Shown here piece by piece: positions 41,129 to 47,924 of a stretch of 64,000 nucleotides of DNA; the first letter of the stretch is position 1, and every line of letters starts with the position of its first letter. The stretch is from positions 1 through 64,000 of the forward strand of contig WSXX01000009.1 in NCBI GenBank assembly GCA_009773515.1. Direction: 5' to 3'. The position numbers and the translations under genes were made by a program. Origin of the DNA: Bacteroidota bacterium. GTDB taxonomy: Bacteria; Bacteroidota; Bacteroidia; Bacteroidales; Lentimicrobiaceae. Under the pieces are notes generated by a model. It worked only from the letters and a program-made list of their open reading frames with translations. It ran no database searches and was not told the origin of the DNA.

Positions 41129-41689
41129 TCACAAACCAATCTCATCCCCAATTTCAACCATAGCAGCCAAAGCAAGCGTAGCAAATTCATCAAGTGGTAT
41201 TCCGGTTTTTTCACATTCCATAATTACTTCGCGGCGTACTGAGGCAGCAAATGCTTTTTCTTTCATGCGCTTTATCACAGATTTTGGCTTTACTGAGGCA
41301 ACTTTTTTATCCGGATAAACCATTGCCGTTGCAGTAATCAGTCCGGTGATGGTTTCGCCGGCGGCAAGTGCAAATTGAAATTCGGTGGTACGTTCGAGTC
41401 CGGTAGCCATTTCATTGTGCATTTTAATGGCATCCACTACATCGGCATCAACGCCCATTTCGGTAAGAATCCGCGCAGTTTCCAGTGCATGAACACTTGG
41501 CTCAGCGTGTGTAACTTCCACATCCAGATCGTGCAGCAGCCCAGCCTGTGCCCATTTTTCAGCATCCCGGCCCAACCGGATTGCCAGCGCCCGCATCACA
41601 GCCTCCGAAGCCAGTGAATGTGCTATTGTCCGTTCGTTTTTTATGTATTGCCGAAGCAATGCCAATGCTTCTTCCCGTGGAAGTATCAT
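41129..41689 (-). CDS. HD-domain hydrolase
   Basis: The protein has 186 residues from MILPREEALALLRQYIKNE; a longer frame to 41848 adds 53 low-complexity residues and is rejected. HD motifs are visible: the first His in RTIAHSLASEAVM, then GLLHDLDVE and a downstream His in KMHNEMATG. This fits the small HDIG-type phosphohydrolases common in bacteria; the substrate is unknown. It is divergent from the aromatic amino acid operon. Confidence 0.85.
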   Translation of the reverse strand: MILPREEALALLRQYIKNERTIAHSLASEAVMRALAIRLGRDAEKWAQAGLLHDLDVEVTHAEPSVHALETARILTEMGVDADVVDAIKMHNEMATGLERTTEFQFALAAGETITGLITATAMVYPDKKVASVKPKSVIKRMKEKAFAASVRREVIMECEKTGIPLDEFATLALAAMVEIGDEIGL

Positions 41690-41873
41690 AAGTGTGGGTT
41701 TGTGGTTTCTAATTGCACAACTTGTAAAGCCAGAACAAAAATAGCGTGTTCTTAAAGATGATTCCCCCTTTAAGTCAATAAAATTTACATCTACTGAACA
41801 ACTTCCAAAAAATAATGTTAATAATCCCTTGAATAAGTCCGGCTTCAAATACCCGGAAACTTAATCTGACGAC
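41690..41873. other. Divergent region upstream of the aromatic leader
   Basis: This 184-bp stretch should carry the promoters of the HD-domain gene (minus) and of the aromatic operon (plus). A full TAnnTTTG element for the operon was not found. AAGTCC at 41835-41840 is complementary to GGACTT in the attenuator and may add an alternative pairing, if it lies inside the transcript. Confidence 0.4.
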
Positions 41874-41885
41874 ATGATAATCACC

Positions 41886-41942
41886 ATGAACAATTTCTAT
41901 TTTAACGCCTATTATTACTGGACAGGTAATTCGGGGACTTAA
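41886..41942 (+). CDS. Leader peptide of the aromatic amino acid operon
   Basis: An 18-codon frame encodes MNNFYFNAYYYWTGNSGT. Seven of 18 residues are aromatic (FYF and YYYW), very unlike a chance frame. An in-frame ATG four codons earlier (41874) is also possible. The stop codon TAA (41940-41942) overlaps the end of a segment able to pair with the terminator's 5' arm. The operon downstream makes phenylalanine and tyrosine precursors, so ribosome stalling on Phe, Tyr or Trp codons would report their supply. No database check was done. Confidence 0.8.
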   Translation: MNNFYFNAYYYWTGNSGT

Positions 41943-42006
41943 TGCGTTGTATCTGGTGAAAATCAACAAAATACTTCGAAAAGTCCCTTAAAGAGGGACT
42001 TTTTTT
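41933..42006 (+). promoter_or_regulatory. Transcription attenuator (antiterminator/terminator)
   Basis: The terminator hairpin has arms AAAGTCCC (41980-41987) and GGGACTTT (41995-42002), a 7-nt loop and a T-run. The 5' arm can instead pair with GGGACTT at 41934-41940, which overlaps the leader stop codon. A ribosome that finishes the leader would cover 41934-41940 and leave the terminator free to form. A ribosome stalled at the Tyr/Trp codons (up to 41921) should leave it free and allow the antiterminator. Transcription then reaches the aminotransferase gene 23 bp downstream. Confidence 0.8.
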
Positions 42007-42029
42007 ATTTACAAATCAAGGCTGAGCCA

Positions 42030-43211
42030 ATGGAACAAACAGAAGGCATTCTGATACCGGCAGCAAATCGCACCCAACAGGTGCAGGAATATTATTTTTC
42101 AGGCAAGCTGCAGCAGATTGATGAAATGCGCAGAAACGGCGCCAACGTTATTAACCTGGGCATTGGCAGTCCGGATTTACCTCCCCATCCCACTGTAGTG
42201 GAAGAACTTTACCAGTGTGCGCTTAACCCCATAAATCATGGATATCAAAGCTATATTGGCACTCCCCTTTTGCGAAATGCATTTGCAGAGTGGTATCTGA
42301 AGCACTTCAGGGTAAACCTTGATCCCGCCCGTGAAATTCTGCCGCTTATTGGCTCAAAAGAGGGCATTATGCACATCACTATGGCATTTGTTAATGAAGG
42401 CGAAGAAGTTCTGATTCCGAATCCCGGTTATCCGGCTTACGAATCAGTTGCCCGTCTGGCAGGTGCAAAAATCAGGTATTACGATCTGAAAGAAGAAACC
42501 GGATGGCTTCCCGACCTCAACAATCTGGAATCAGAAGGACTTCAGAATGTAAAACTGATGTGGGTTAATTATCCGCATATGCCAACAGGCACTCCTTCAA
42601 CCGACAAGCTTTTCAGCGATCTTATTGCCTTTGCCCGCAAAAAACGGATTCTTATCTGCAACGACAACCCTTACAGTTTTATCCTGAATACGGACACCCG
42701 CAGCATCTTATCCGTTGAAGGGGCGATGGATGTTGCCATGGAGCTAAACTCCCTGAGCAAATCGCAGAATATGGCTGGCTGGCGCATTGGAATGCTTGCC
42801 GGCAGATCTGAATACATAAAGGCAGTGCTGAAAGTCAAGAGCAACATGGACTCAGGTATGTTTCAACCGCTTCAGGCTGCTGCTGCGAAAGCATTGCAAA
42901 TGGACGACAGCTGGTACCAATCGGTGAATGAAGTTTACCTGAAACGTCGCCTGGTAGCTGAAAAAATCATGAATGCACTCAATTGCACTTTCGATTCCCG
43001 GCAAACCGGACTTTTCCTTTGGGGGAAAATTCCTGCTCATTTCAGCGGTTCGGAAGAACTTACCGAGCAGGTTCTCCATGGAGTTCATGTTTTTCTCACT
43101 CCGGGTTTTATTTTCGGAAGCAACGGCAACCGCTTTATCCGCATTTCGCTGTGCAGCACCGAAGACTTATTGAAAGAAGCGCTTTTGAGAATTGAAAATA
43201 AACTGCTTTAA
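42030..43211 (+). CDS. PLP-dependent class I/II aminotransferase (aromatic pathway)
   Basis: The protein has 393 residues. The PLP-binding Lys lies in SLSKSQNMAGWRIG, preceded by ICNDNPYSF (Asp/Tyr contacts) and followed by the NRFIRISLC Arg. It is a fold-type I aminotransferase of the aspartate/aromatic subgroup. Placed at the head of an operon with tyrA and DAHP synthase-chorismate mutase, it probably transaminates aromatic keto acids or prephenate. It starts 23 bp after the attenuator; substrate specificity cannot be read from the sequence. Confidence 0.9.
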   Translation: MEQTEGILIPAANRTQQVQEYYFSGKLQQIDEMRRNGANVINLGIGSPDLPPHPTVVEELYQCALNPINHGYQSYIGTPLLRNAFAEWYLKHFRVNLDPAREILPLIGSKEGIMHITMAFVNEGEEVLIPNPGYPAYESVARLAGAKIRYYDLKEETGWLPDLNNLESEGLQNVKLMWVNYPHMPTGTPSTDKLFSDLIAFARKKRILICNDNPYSFILNTDTRSILSVEGAMDVAMELNSLSKSQNMAGWRIGMLAGRSEYIKAVLKVKSNMDSGMFQPLQAAAAKALQMDDSWYQSVNEVYLKRRLVAEKIMNALNCTFDSRQTGLFLWGKIPAHFSGSEELTEQVLHGVHVFLTPGFIFGSNGNRFIRISLCSTEDLLKEALLRIENKLL

Positions 43212-43393: not shown

Positions 43394-44242
43394 ATGATGA
43401 ACATTTGTATTGTCGGGATGGGCCTGATTGGCGGATCACTTTCGAAAGCCATGCGTGGTAATGGCTTTGCAGGAAAAATAATCGGAGTTGATAAAAATCC
43501 TCAGCACTGCACCATTGCCATGTATTGCGGACTTGCCAGTGAGTTTCTGCCATTGGAAGAGGCAATTGAAGTTTCAGACCTTATCCTGCTATGTTCCCCG
43601 GTTGATGTCAATGTAAAACTGCTTCCCGAAATCCTCGACCGGATCAAAGGAACTTCAAAAGTAGTCGCAGACATGGGCTCAACCAAGGCTGATCTGGCTG
43701 CTGTTGTTAAAAATCACGAAGGTCGCGGCAGGTATGTAGCCGCACATCCAATGGCCGGAACGGAGTTTTCTGGACCGGCAGCGGCAATAGAAAATCTGTT
43801 TTACGACAAAGTAGCCATAATCTGCGACAAGGAGAAAAGTGATGAAGACGCTTATCTGCTGGTAATGGCTATGCTGCAGTCATTAAGCATGCGCATTCAG
43901 TATATGAATTCGGCTGACCACGATGTTCATGTGGCTTACGTTTCTCACATTTCACACATCACATCTTTTGCCCTTGCCCTTTGTGTTCTGGATAAGGAAA
44001 AAAACGAAAAGAATATTCTCTCCCTCGCTGCCGGCGGATTTGAAAGCACGGTTCGTCTGGCAAAAAGCAATTGCGATACCTGGACTCCAATTTTTCTGGG
44101 AAATTCAGCATCCATTCTTGAGGTGATCGATACCTATATCGAGAAAATGAACTCCTTTAAGAAGAGCATTCAGGAAAACGATCATGAATCGCTCAGAGCT
44201 TTGATGGATCGGGCCAATTCGATCCGTAAAATATTAAAATGA
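43394..44242 (+). CDS. tyrA: Prephenate dehydrogenase
   Basis: The protein has 282 residues. The NAD-binding Rossmann motif GMGLIGGSL is at the N-terminus, and AHPMAGTEFSGP and SHISHITSFALA are conserved TyrA segments with the catalytic His. It oxidises prephenate to 4-hydroxyphenylpyruvate for tyrosine. No chorismate mutase or ACT domain is fused; the mutase is on the next gene. Its stop overlaps the next start by 4 nt, so the two are translationally coupled. The start is 43394 or the adjacent ATG at 43397. Confidence 0.95.
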   Translation: MMNICIVGMGLIGGSLSKAMRGNGFAGKIIGVDKNPQHCTIAMYCGLASEFLPLEEAIEVSDLILLCSPVDVNVKLLPEILDRIKGTSKVVADMGSTKADLAAVVKNHEGRGRYVAAHPMAGTEFSGPAAAIENLFYDKVAIICDKEKSDEDAYLLVMAMLQSLSMRIQYMNSADHDVHVAYVSHISHITSFALALCVLDKEKNEKNILSLAAGGFESTVRLAKSNCDTWTPIFLGNSASILEVIDTYIEKMNSFKKSIQENDHESLRALMDRANSIRKILK

Positions 44243-45375
44243 CGAAACATTTACCAAAAACAGCAAAACCAATGGAAACTAAAATACAAATAGAACCCCT
44301 TAAAAGCTGGGACATTTATAAAAAACGACCACTTCTCCTTACTGGCCCATGCAGTGTAGAAACAGAGGAGCAGGTTATGGCAACCGCCAAAAGTCTGGTT
44401 GAAGCCAAAAAGGTAGATGTATTCCGCGCCGGAATCTGGAAACCCCGCACCCGCCCCAACTCTTTCGAAGGGGTTGGAACCCCCGGGCTTAAATGGTTGA
44501 AACAGGTGAAACAGGAATTCGGTCTGCCGATTGCTACCGAAGTTGCCACCGAAAAACATGTTTACGAAGCCTTAAAATTTGGAGTGGATGTGCTGTGGAT
44601 AGGCGCACGCACAACTGTTAATCCATTTGCAGTGCAGGAAATTGCCAATGCACTTCAGGGGGTTGATGTAAAAGTATTGGTAAAAAATCCGATTAATCCT
44701 GAACTGGAATTGTGGGTTGGCGCCATCGAGCGGATTATGAAAGCCGGAGTCAGCCAGGTAGGTGCCATTCACCGGGGATTTTCCTCTTACGAAAAAACAG
44801 CCTTCCGCAATCAACCACAGTGGCAGATTCCCATTGACCTCCGGCAACGTATGCCAGGCCTGCCGCTGATCTGCGACCCCAGTCACATCGGAGGCAAAAG
44901 AGCATATCTGCATGACATTGCACAGGAAGCAATGGATTTGAATTACGATGGGCTGATGATTGAATCTCACATCGATCCCGAAAATGCCTGGAGCGACAAA
45001 CAACAGCAGCTCACACCTGAAGCCCTCGCCAAAATGCTGGATGAACTTGTACTTCGGAATGAAGATACCAGCGATTCACAATTTGCAAATTCAATTGACG
45101 AACTCCGCAGCCAGATTGACATTTTCGACGATCAATTGCTCGATATACTCGAGCGCAGAATGCAGGTTGCAAAAACCATTGGGGAATACAAGAAAAAGCA
45201 CAATATCACCATTCTGCAGACCAACCGCTGGCAGGAGATTGTGAACAAAGCAATCCGCAAAGCAAATACCAATGGCCTGAGCCCTGAATTTATTTCAACC
45301 ATCCTCAAGGCAATTCATCAGGAATCAATTGCCAATCAAATGAGGGTAATGAATGAACCGGAAAAAATAGCTTAA
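44239..45375 (+). CDS. aroG: Bifunctional DAHP synthase / chorismate mutase
   Basis: The protein has 378 residues; an internal ATG at codon 12 (METKIQIEPLKSW, 44272) may be the true start. The N-terminal part (to about 270) is a type I-beta DAHP synthase: LLTGPCSVE, FRAGIWKPRTRPNSFEG, IGARTTVNP, GAIHRGFSSYE and CDPSHIGGKR. The C-terminal about 90 residues (SIDELRSQIDIFDDQLLDIL, RMQVAKTIGEYKKKHN) are an AroQ-type chorismate mutase. The fusion is typical of Bacteroidota and joins the first and branch-point reactions of the pathway. It is coupled to tyrA by a 4-nt overlap. Confidence 0.95.
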   Translation: MTKHLPKTAKPMETKIQIEPLKSWDIYKKRPLLLTGPCSVETEEQVMATAKSLVEAKKVDVFRAGIWKPRTRPNSFEGVGTPGLKWLKQVKQEFGLPIATEVATEKHVYEALKFGVDVLWIGARTTVNPFAVQEIANALQGVDVKVLVKNPINPELELWVGAIERIMKAGVSQVGAIHRGFSSYEKTAFRNQPQWQIPIDLRQRMPGLPLICDPSHIGGKRAYLHDIAQEAMDLNYDGLMIESHIDPENAWSDKQQQLTPEALAKMLDELVLRNEDTSDSQFANSIDELRSQIDIFDDQLLDILERRMQVAKTIGEYKKKHNITILQTNRWQEIVNKAIRKANTNGLSPEFISTILKAIHQESIANQMRVMNEPEKIA

Positions 45376-45589: not shown

Positions 45590-45622
45590 TTGATTTCAAC
45601 ACTTGCTAACTGATTGAAAATA

Positions 45623-46879
45623 ATGCAGAAAATCATACGGCCCTCATTCGTAAAAGGTTCGGTTACGGCTCCATCAAGCAAAAGCATGACTCAAAGAGCC
45701 ATTGCAGCAGCCATGTTATGCACAGGAACCTCAACCTTAAAGAATGTTTCAGATTGCAACGATTCGCTGGCCGCACTTGAAATGATTCAGAAACTCGGCG
45801 CTGAAATTGTGCCGGGTGGTGATGAAGTCACCATCATGGGCGGATTCCTGATGCGAAGTCAGCAAATGAATTGTGGCGAATCAGGTCTCGCAATGCGCAT
45901 GTTCGCTCCCATTGCTGCGCTTCACCGAAAAGAAATCACATTTACAGGTGAAGGTTCGCTTACCAAACGTCCGGTGGGAATGATCGGCGAAGCACTTACT
46001 CAACTGGGGGCCGGTTTTAATTCACAAAATGGCTTACTCCCCTTTTCGGTAAACGGACCTTTGCAGGGAGGAAAGGCTACGATTGACGGATCAGTCAGCT
46101 CGCAACTTCTCACAGGTTTGTTGATGGCGCTTCCCCTTGCAGGAAACGATTCGGAAGTTACAGTCGTAAATCTGAAAAGTAAACCCTATGTTTCCATGAC
46201 CATAAAGTTGCTTGAAGATTTTGGAATATCTGTTCAGAACCGCAACTTTGAATCATTCCTGATCCCCGGAAACCAGAAATATATCGCCAGAGAATACACC
46301 ATAGAAGGTGACTGGAGTGCTGCAGCATTTTTGCTGGTTGCCGGTGCCATCAATGGAAACCTTACGGTGAAAGGAATTAACCAAAGTAGCGAACAGTCTG
46401 ATAAAGCTATACTCGATGTTTTGAAAATGGCCGGCGCGCAGATGAAAATCGATTCTGATTCTGTGGAAATTCAGAAATCAGAACTACAGGCTTTTTCGTT
46501 TGATGCCACCGAATGCCCCGACCTGTTTCCCCCGCTTGCGGCCTTGGCTGCTTATTGCAATGGAACATCAACCATTCACGGAGTAGAGAGGTTGATTCAC
46601 AAAGAAAGTAACCGGGCTATTGCAATACAGCAGGAACTTTCAAAACTTGGGATTGAAGTACTGATTAAGAATAATGTTATGTCAATTACAGGTGGAAATG
46701 TTTCTGAAGCATTTGTATATTCGCATAACGATCACCGCATTGCCATGATGGCTGCAGTAATGGCTTTGGGTGCGGATGGTCCGGTTTCAATTCAGGATGC
46801 GGAGTGTGTGGCAAAATCCTATCCGGGCTTTTTTGCAGACCTTCAAAAACTTGGTGCAGGCATTGAAAATGTTGACTAA
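45623..46879 (+). CDS. aroA: 3-phosphoshikimate 1-carboxyvinyltransferase (EPSP synthase)
   Basis: The protein has 418 residues from the ATG at 45623 (MQKIIRPSFVKGSVTAPSSK); a TTG three codons upstream is less likely. Conserved segments are APSSKSMTQRAIAA, NCGESGLAMRMFAP, VSSQLLTGLLMALP and the C-terminal HNDHRIAMMAAVMA. It condenses shikimate-3-phosphate with PEP. It stands 247 bp after the DAHP synthase gene, beyond the inverted repeat, so it may be a second transcription unit with aroC. Confidence 0.95.
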   Translation: MQKIIRPSFVKGSVTAPSSKSMTQRAIAAAMLCTGTSTLKNVSDCNDSLAALEMIQKLGAEIVPGGDEVTIMGGFLMRSQQMNCGESGLAMRMFAPIAALHRKEITFTGEGSLTKRPVGMIGEALTQLGAGFNSQNGLLPFSVNGPLQGGKATIDGSVSSQLLTGLLMALPLAGNDSEVTVVNLKSKPYVSMTIKLLEDFGISVQNRNFESFLIPGNQKYIAREYTIEGDWSAAAFLLVAGAINGNLTVKGINQSSEQSDKAILDVLKMAGAQMKIDSDSVEIQKSELQAFSFDATECPDLFPPLAALAAYCNGTSTIHGVERLIHKESNRAIAIQQELSKLGIEVLIKNNVMSITGGNVSEAFVYSHNDHRIAMMAAVMALGADGPVSIQDAECVAKSYPGFFADLQKLGAGIENVD

Positions 46880-46946: not shown

Positions 46947-47924
46947 ATGAACACAATCGGACGAATTTTTCGCGTAAGCATATTTGGAGAATCACATGGA
47001 GAAGGCATCGGTGTAGTGATTGACGGAGTACCGCCGGGAATTCCGTTAACTGAAACTGATTTTCTAAGCGATCTTTCCAGACGCAGAAGCGGCGCTGCCG
47101 GCACCACACCCCGCATTGAACCCGATCTGCCAAAATTAAAAAGCGGCATATGGAACGGATTTACAACCGGAGCACCTTTAAGCGTTTTCTTCGAAAACAC
47201 AAACACCAAATCAGCCGATTACGACAACCTGCGCGACATTCCTCGTCCCGGACATTCTGATTTTACTGCCAGAATAAAATTCAAAGGCTATGCCGATCCG
47301 CGTGGTGGCGGGCATTTTTCGGGACGAATTACCCTCGGACTTGTGGCTGCCGGAGTGGTTGCAAAAAAAATTATTGATCCTGTGTTTGTCAGTTCTCAGA
47401 TTCTGGAACTTGGAGGAGATTCCGATATTGCAAGAGCCATAGAAAACATCACAGGAACAGGCGATTCAGTTGGCGGAATTATTCAATGTACCGCCACAAA
47501 CATGCCTCAGGGTTTGGGCGAACCTTTTTTTGGAAGTGTGGAATCAACCATCAGTCAACTGATATTTTCGATACCGGCCATCAAAGGAATTGAATTTGGT
47601 TCAGGATTCAGTGCTGCCCGTATGCGGGGAAGTCAGCACAACGACGTTTACATCAACCCACAGGGAAAGACTCTAACCAACAATGCAGCCGGAATAAACG
47701 GCGGAATCACTAACGGGAACGATCTTGTTTTCAGAATCGTTGTAAAACCAACTTCCAGCATTTCACTACCTCAGGAAACCATCAATCTGAAAACAGGAAA
47801 AATTGAAACTCTGAAAGTCGAAGGGCGTCATGATGTTTGCATAGCACTTCGTGTGCCGGTCGTCGCTGAAGCTGCAACCGCCATTGGTCTGGCAGATTTA
47901 TTTCTGCTCAGCAAAAGTCACTGA
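46947..47924 (+). CDS. aroC: Chorismate synthase
   Basis: The protein has 325 residues, slightly shorter than the usual 350-360. Signatures are GESHGEGIGVVIDGVPPG, RRRSGAAGTTPRIEPD, RPGHSDFTARIKFKGYADPR and GGGHFSGR. It makes chorismate from EPSP with reduced FMN. It follows aroA by 67 bp and ends 14 bp before the convergent MOSC-MogA gene, with no room for a separate terminator. Confidence 0.95.
   Translation: MNTIGRIFRVSIFGESHGEGIGVVIDGVPPGIPLTETDFLSDLSRRRSGAAGTTPRIEPDLPKLKSGIWNGFTTGAPLSVFFENTNTKSADYDNLRDIPRPGHSDFTARIKFKGYADPRGGGHFSGRITLGLVAAGVVAKKIIDPVFVSSQILELGGDSDIARAIENITGTGDSVGGIIQCTATNMPQGLGEPFFGSVESTISQLIFSIPAIKGIEFGSGFSAARMRGSQHNDVYINPQGKTLTNNAAGINGGITNGNDLVFRIVVKPTSSISLPQETINLKTGKIETLKVEGRHDVCIALRVPVVAEAATAIGLADLFLLSKSH

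Follow-up and report, generated by a model that had tools for sequence, protein, structure and literature searches.

The 64,000-nucleotide stretch of DNA analyzed here (the window) very probably contains, ahead of a predicted tyrosine-making operon, a ribosome-mediated transcription attenuator that belongs to the pheL/trpL type and responds chiefly to tyrosine. The attenuator codons, the mutually exclusive stems, their spacing, their recurrence and their co-variation in relatives were all found by computation. Judged from the sequence, this is most probably a real attenuator, of a kind already known, and it is predicted to answer mainly to tyrosine in this organism. A preliminary description of the window had proposed a ribosome-stalling attenuator, and that proposal is well supported, as the leader, the terminator and the exclusive stems recurred and co-varied in relatives.

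The 18-codon aromatic leader frame of that description was present (Table 1). It contained four Tyr, two Phe and one Trp codons, and an alternative in-frame ATG at 41874 would prepend MIIT to it. With four Tyr codons ahead of tyrA, the leader carries codons for the product of the genes downstream. Within the 450 nt upstream, the ORF scoring highest for aromatics had 7 in 12 codons, which 0/100 dinucleotide shuffles matched. A combined rule, which asked for a short ORF with 6 or more aromatic residues among 12 codons followed by a terminator, had a single match over both strands of the window, and this was the leader. The stretch 41860-42029 folded more stably than 200 of 200 shuffles (z -3.64).

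Table 1. Coordinates of the predicted attenuator and of the genes behind it in the window.
Feature	Position	Strand	Details
Leader ORF MNNFYFNAYYYWTGNSGT, 18 codons	41886-41942	+	ATG 41886, stop TAA 41940-41942; 7 aromatics in 12 codons
Upstream control codons Phe-Tyr-Phe (TTC TAT TTT)	41895-41903	+	Sequence
Main control codons Tyr-Tyr-Tyr-Trp (TAT TAT TAC TGG)	41910-41921	+	11 nt before antiterminator helix
Small hairpin	41914-41930	+	Predicted fold; last control codons and stretch preceding segment 2
Segment 2, antiterminator 5' strand GGGGACTT	41933-41940	+	Overlaps last leader codons and first base of stop
Segment 3, shared strand	41981-41988	+	Predicted pairing; partner of segment 2 or of terminator 3' arm
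Intrinsic terminator	41978-42006	+	Predicted fold; 12 bp stem 41978-41989/41993-42004, loop AAA 41990-41992, T run 42000-42006
Aminotransferase class I/II, putative first gene under control	42030-43211	+	PF00155, 186.7 bits
tyrA, prephenate dehydrogenase	43394-44242	+	NF006307, 327.1 bits (cut-off 295)
DAHP synthase-chorismate mutase fusion	44239-45375	+	PF00793 and PF01817 above cut-off
aroA	45614-46879	+	TIGR01356, 392.6 bits (cut-off 287.25)
aroC	46947-47924	+	TIGR00033, 334.8 bits (cut-off 212.2)

The terminator sits between the leader and the first gene, 23 nt separating its T run from the start codon at 42030. The preliminary description had placed it correctly, but the arms given there (41980-41987 and 41995-42002) were incomplete, the predicted stem being 12 bp long. 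The motif GGGACTT at 41934-41940, described as complementary to the 5' arm of the terminator, was present and forms part of an alternative stem of 8 bp, in which segments 2 and 3 are joined by seven Watson-Crick pairs and one G-U pair. Folding of 41932-41993 alone gave the antiterminator (-17.2 kcal/mol), and when the 3' arm was included the terminator won (-18.9 kcal/mol); the choice between them would be made during transcription, as in classical attenuators. The 2:3 pairing reached -12.8 kcal/mol against a shuffle mean of -7.2 and was equalled by 0/200 shuffles, and the protector pairing of segment 1 with segment 2, expected where the leader is not translated, was not significant in the window (14/100 shuffles). 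The antiterminator helix starts 11 nt past the last control codon and finishes on the stop codon; taken as geometry only, this leaves segment 2 free at a stalled ribosome and covered by a ribosome at the stop. The small hairpin was read by eye at the same place in three aligned relatives of the genus, and one of its pairs varied, being T-G in the window, T-A in loci L031 and L175 and C-G in L033.

In the proposed mechanism, RNA polymerase would transcribe the leader and a ribosome would follow behind. With ample charged tRNA-Tyr, the ribosome would get to the stop (41940) and mask segment 2, segment 3 would pair with the 3' arm of the terminator, and transcription would stop at the T run. Under Tyr shortage, the ribosome would stall at the Tyr codons 41910-41918 with its leading edge short of segment 2, which would then be free to pair with segment 3, so that the genes from the aminotransferase through tyrA, DAHP synthase and aroA to aroC would be transcribed. 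Stalling may also occur at Phe-Tyr-Phe or at Trp where those tRNAs are uncharged. Transcription and translation of the leader, stalling, the response to tyrosine and the extent of the operon are what we infer from these features.

Profile matches agreed with the earlier calls of tyrA, DAHP synthase-mutase, aroA, aroC and an aminotransferase, the first gene being a class I/II aminotransferase for which no NCBIfam model was above its cut-off among the 25 of 66 models listed. The aroA and aroC genes are presumably co-transcribed with the aminotransferase, tyrA and DAHP synthase-mutase genes. Profile searches of the draft genome (G000, 97.2% complete) did not find prephenate dehydratase (PF00800), at the locus or elsewhere, or indole-glycerol phosphate synthase (IGPS, PF00218, trpC). 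No trpB above the family cut-off was found in this genome either, the best trpB-like gene having 149 bits against a cut-off of 392. Since PF00800 and PF00218 were not found, the operon can lead to Tyr and probably not to Phe or Trp; judging by its gene content, the encoded branch probably ends in tyrosine, with Phe and Trp not its likely products. An alternative route to Phe is conceivable via an unrelated enzyme, e.g., a cyclohexadienyl dehydratase of another family. PF00800 was also missing in the genomes G010, G006 and G009 of the same genus and retained in G015. G000 appears to be auxotrophic for Phe and Trp while its Tyr branch is intact, which suggests that the organism may make its own Tyr but import Phe and Trp.

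The preliminary description had also held that one leader senses all three end products of the downstream pathway. On that view, the leader would respond to Phe, Tyr and Trp alike and the shared chorismate pathway would answer any of the three, in line with the presence of codons for all three amino acids and with DAHP synthase, aroA and aroC serving the common trunk. However, as PF00800, PF00218 and a trpB above the cut-off were not found in the genome, starvation for Phe or Trp would not be relievable by the operon genes, and the leader of G006 from the same genus (L033) was without any Phe codon. Sensing of all three is thus rather unlikely. The window leader looks like a Phe/Tyr sensor drifting to Tyr. 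Its Phe codons look inherited, those of the upstream Phe-Tyr-Phe cluster being judged vestigial because PF00800 was not found in the genome, and for its Trp codon no matching pathway was found there.

Rfam models gave no match at gathering score anywhere in the window, T-box and other riboswitches included. The best sub-threshold match was Phe_leader (RF01859) at 41873-42008, with 28.1 bits against 55 and an E value of 0.0097 in a 401-base search; Bacteroid-trp (RF01692) was not among the nine matches up to E 10 in 41700-42100. The motif TANNTTTG, which we take to be the Bacteroidota -7 element, was absent upstream of the leader in the window, L031 and L033, and the window had no consensus promoter. 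The Rfam scan of 14 relatives at gathering score gave only a SAM riboswitch and a tRNA and no RF01692; the SAM riboswitch lay in the locus of one relative (L033:3741-3840, minus strand).

The absent promoter element would be expected if the attenuator were decaying, with the leader a relic and the terminator constitutive or idle. The genus relatives can be read in the same way, since 2:3 pairing was weak in L031 and L033 (not significant at 75/200 and 61/200 shuffles, nor in L175 at 14/200), and so can the persistence of Phe codons after pheA loss. The L033 leader was matched by 12/100 shuffles. In G009 of the same genus (L176) no leader scored and the upstream stretch was repetitive; short direct repeats, without a leader, preceded its aminotransferase gene at L176:4730-4950. 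However, both antiterminator and terminator are strong in the window, and the upstream neighbour, an HD-domain gene at 41129-41848, lies on the minus strand, divergent from the leader, so that no upstream transcript on the leader strand needs termination there. We consider decay quite improbable and retain the working, tyrosine-tuned attenuator as the preferred reading.

Loci for comparison were chosen by possession of this aminotransferase, present at E 1e-90 in 65 of 296 genomes of the class, and therefore do not represent Bacteroidota as a whole. The 161 loci were reduced to 156 at 95% identity, and 155 were scanned, one being dropped for a too short upstream stretch. An aromatic-rich leader ahead of the aminotransferase or pheA-aminotransferase genes was found in 115/155 loci; these 115, scoring at least 6 aromatics in 12 codons, were carried into the later tests. 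In 103/155 loci the leader was matched by at most 1/100 shuffles. The pheA gene was directly ahead of the aminotransferase in 123/155 loci, and among these pheA-first loci 102 had a leader scoring at least 6 and 94 one matched by at most 1/100 shuffles. The corresponding numbers were 13 and 9 for the 29 loci in which the aminotransferase came first (AT-first), 16 being without a leader of that score. In two further loci pheA lay at a greater distance upstream, and one more locus was truncated; none of these three had such a leader. The combined rule matched the focal 720 nt in 98/155 loci against 10 matches in the other 2.81 Mb of these loci. By coordinates, four of these 10 fall about at the start of aroF-CM (L161, L164, L171 and L173), where an aromatic leader with terminator was seen ~3.5-3.8 kb before pheA, aroF-CM lying upstream of pheA. 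That a plain intergenic terminator lies next to a chance ORF is extremely improbable. Low-scoring short ORFs carrying Phe/Tyr codons are indeed frequent, the best score of shuffles averaging 3.6 to 3.9 of 12 in the main groups, but the combined rule had one match in 64 kb, 0/100 and 0/200 shuffles equalled the window, and the leader recurs at 115/155 loci.

In 15/155 loci (L065, L075, L077, L078, L081, L083, L086, L094, L097, L099, L104, L109, L119, L170 and L180), one aromatic leader was followed by another, and both had a terminator of their own. In the 12 Chitinophaga loci of this kind, the first leader had a Trp codon and the second Phe/Tyr only.

A terminator was detected behind the leader in 113/115 loci. 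The rule recognized no terminator in L038 and L062 and only a poor one in L040, although GC-rich hairpins were visible by eye in L038 and L040. The stretch past the last aromatic codon paired with the terminator 5' arm at or below 10/200 shuffles in 90/113 loci and at or below 2/200 in 75/113, and 23/113 were outside the 5% mark. Swap tests used 106 loci with a terminator score of at least 8, cut to 101 with distinct segment 3. Segment 2 with its own segment 3 gave -13.99 kcal/mol versus -8.83 when swapped (0/10000 permutations). The own partner had a median rank of 6 of 101, was first in 13/101 and was in the best 5% in 45/101; that of the window ranked 16th. In GC- and length-matched swaps, possible for 99 of the 101 loci, the own partner beat the median in 92/99. 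The check by alignment across relatives suggested in the preliminary description thus came out in favor of the attenuator, the aromatic leader recurring (115/155) and segments 2 and 3 co-varying over 101 loci. Segment 1, lying in the 5' half of the leader, with the stretch from segment 2 onward gave -14.99 matched and -11.37 swapped (0/10000; 101 loci), and singly the 1:2 protector pairing was at or below 5/100 shuffles in 36/101 loci.

In the 81 loci with significant pairing, segment 2 started 8.9 nt past the last aromatic codon (sd 2.5); all 101 loci had a mean of 9.2 (sd 3.2) and their shuffles 21.1 (sd 15.0). Its position was looser when measured from the stop codon, with an sd of 11.3, or from the terminator, with an sd of 8.2. 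Segment 2 is thus placed more tightly by the last aromatic codon than by the stop codon, which points to ribosome stalling. A ribosome that holds the last aromatic codon in the A site reaches about 10 nt, and the spacing of 8.9 nt fits this reach. E. coli pheL, the positive control, gave 6 nt and 0/200 shuffles by the same rule. In a count covering 113 of the 115 leaders, TANNTTTG was found within 120 nt upstream of 73 (expected 10.9), and 45/75 sites lay 25-40 nt ahead of the leader start. Aromatic codons in the chosen frame numbered 996/1265, with 282 and 265 out of frame, the in-frame count being inflated because the frame had been picked for aromatics.

Phe was present in the codon cluster of 102/102 pheA-first leaders (median Phe fraction 0.56). 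Among AT-first leaders 6/13 were without it, and the median was 0.20, the window having 0.33. Leaders before operons without pheA, from few independent lineages, were Tyr-biased and often Tyr-only. The aminotransferase occurred in 47/61 genomes of the Siphonobacter family, and of 30 loci fetched from this family, 18 had a Tyr-dominated leader and terminator before it and 12 no convincing leader. Within the available stretch, tyrA followed the aminotransferase in 16/18 of these leader loci; 11/18 leaders had no Phe in the cluster, and the median Phe fraction was 0.00. These 18 overlap the 13 AT-first loci, at least three (L208, L209 and L211) being genomes already counted there.

Separate pheA genes were preceded by an aromatic leader in 8/16 loci (17 were fetched, L194 being the G015 operon itself). 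Their terminators were found by script in L191, L192, L193, L198, L199 and L200 and by eye in L196, and none was found in L207. No convincing Phe leader was found at the separate pheA of the Siphonobacter family in L195, L197, L201, L202, L205 and L206, of which L195 and L197 were assigned to the family from identical coordinates. In G045 the lone pheA had a Phe-only leader (L196) and the aminotransferase a Phe/Tyr leader (L182). Sphingobacterium alkalisoli and Olivibacter jilunii had Phe/Tyr leaders at pheA-aroF (L198, L199) and none at aminotransferase-tyrA (L049, L070). Exceptions were L031, L036, L103, L163 and L182, which retain Phe codons without adjacent pheA; the genomes of L036, L103 and L182 carry pheA elsewhere.

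A tree was calculated from the 115 leader loci and 11 loci of the Siphonobacter family; the remaining seven of its 18 leader loci were judged repeats by eye. The pheA state changed at least eight times, four of them on supported branches. The link between pheA and Phe codons was not significant in independent pairs (four pairs on supported branches, with median p values of 1 and 0.5). A Mann-Whitney test without this correction gave p 8e-12 (90 vs 24 distinct clusters), which is not independent evidence. The window leader may derive from a Phe and Tyr sensor before pheA-aminotransferase operons that has been shedding Phe codons after pheA loss. A wider proposal, for which we see the chances evenly divided, is a widespread family of aromatic attenuators in Bacteroidota, not in Rfam within the range scanned, in which the sensor codons change as operon genes disappear or become separated: Phe and Tyr before pheA-aminotransferase, Tyr only before aminotransferase-tyrA, Phe only before the lone pheA of G045, and leaders paired in series in Chitinophaga. 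In the window, prephenate dehydratase would have been lost and the sensor would be midway in its change from Phe/Tyr to Tyr. Such a family would extend a textbook mechanism to several Bacteroidota lineages with little literature on it, its codons would give readable predictions of the amino acid answered by each operon, and loss or relocation of pheA would offer natural replicates for changes of leader-peptide specificity.

Bacteroid-trp RNA (RF01692) contains Trp codons; it had no gathering-score match in the window or the 14 relatives, and the window genes are not trp genes. It is listed in a published table as a candidate cis-regulatory RNA of Bacteroidetes (PMC2864571). A transcriptome study of Flavobacterium psychrophilum reports a structured 5' element upstream of pheA without Rfam match, conserved in other Flavobacteriaceae, and proposes leader-peptide attenuation for amino-acid operons (PMC9723704). 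For this element, the accessible part of that paper describes neither a leader peptide nor an analysis of codons, and it names no further family. A 5' element before flavobacterial pheA and leader-peptide clues before amino-acid operons were, as far as that part goes, already known (PMC9723704). Ahead of shikimate genes, two candidate uORFs carrying Phe and Tyr codons have also been reported, as has one motif that precedes aroF in Acholeplasma and has a terminator; the passages available leave the lineage of the Phe/Tyr pair unstated and name no Bacteroidota genome and no Tyr-only form (PMC6429828, PMC8632094). The tandem attenuators of Salmonella mgtCBR, with two short ORFs in the leader region according to the portion available (PMC3641672), are comparable only to the Chitinophaga leaders in series, not to the window leader. 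Further related literature includes PMC7366714, PMC2965389 and PMC10219788. In the open literature searched, Phe/Tyr leader peptides were not found described across Bacteroidota, and an earlier account may exist in subscription papers or supplements. The closest known system is E. coli pheL-pheA (RF01859), from which the window differs in that pheL has Phe codons only and precedes pheA, whereas the window leader is Tyr-dominated and pheA was not found; the window also stayed below the gathering score of the Phe_leader model. Both have an aromatic leader, a terminator and a segment 2 starting a few nucleotides past the last aromatic codon, at 6 nt in E. coli pheL and 10 nt in the window by the same rule.
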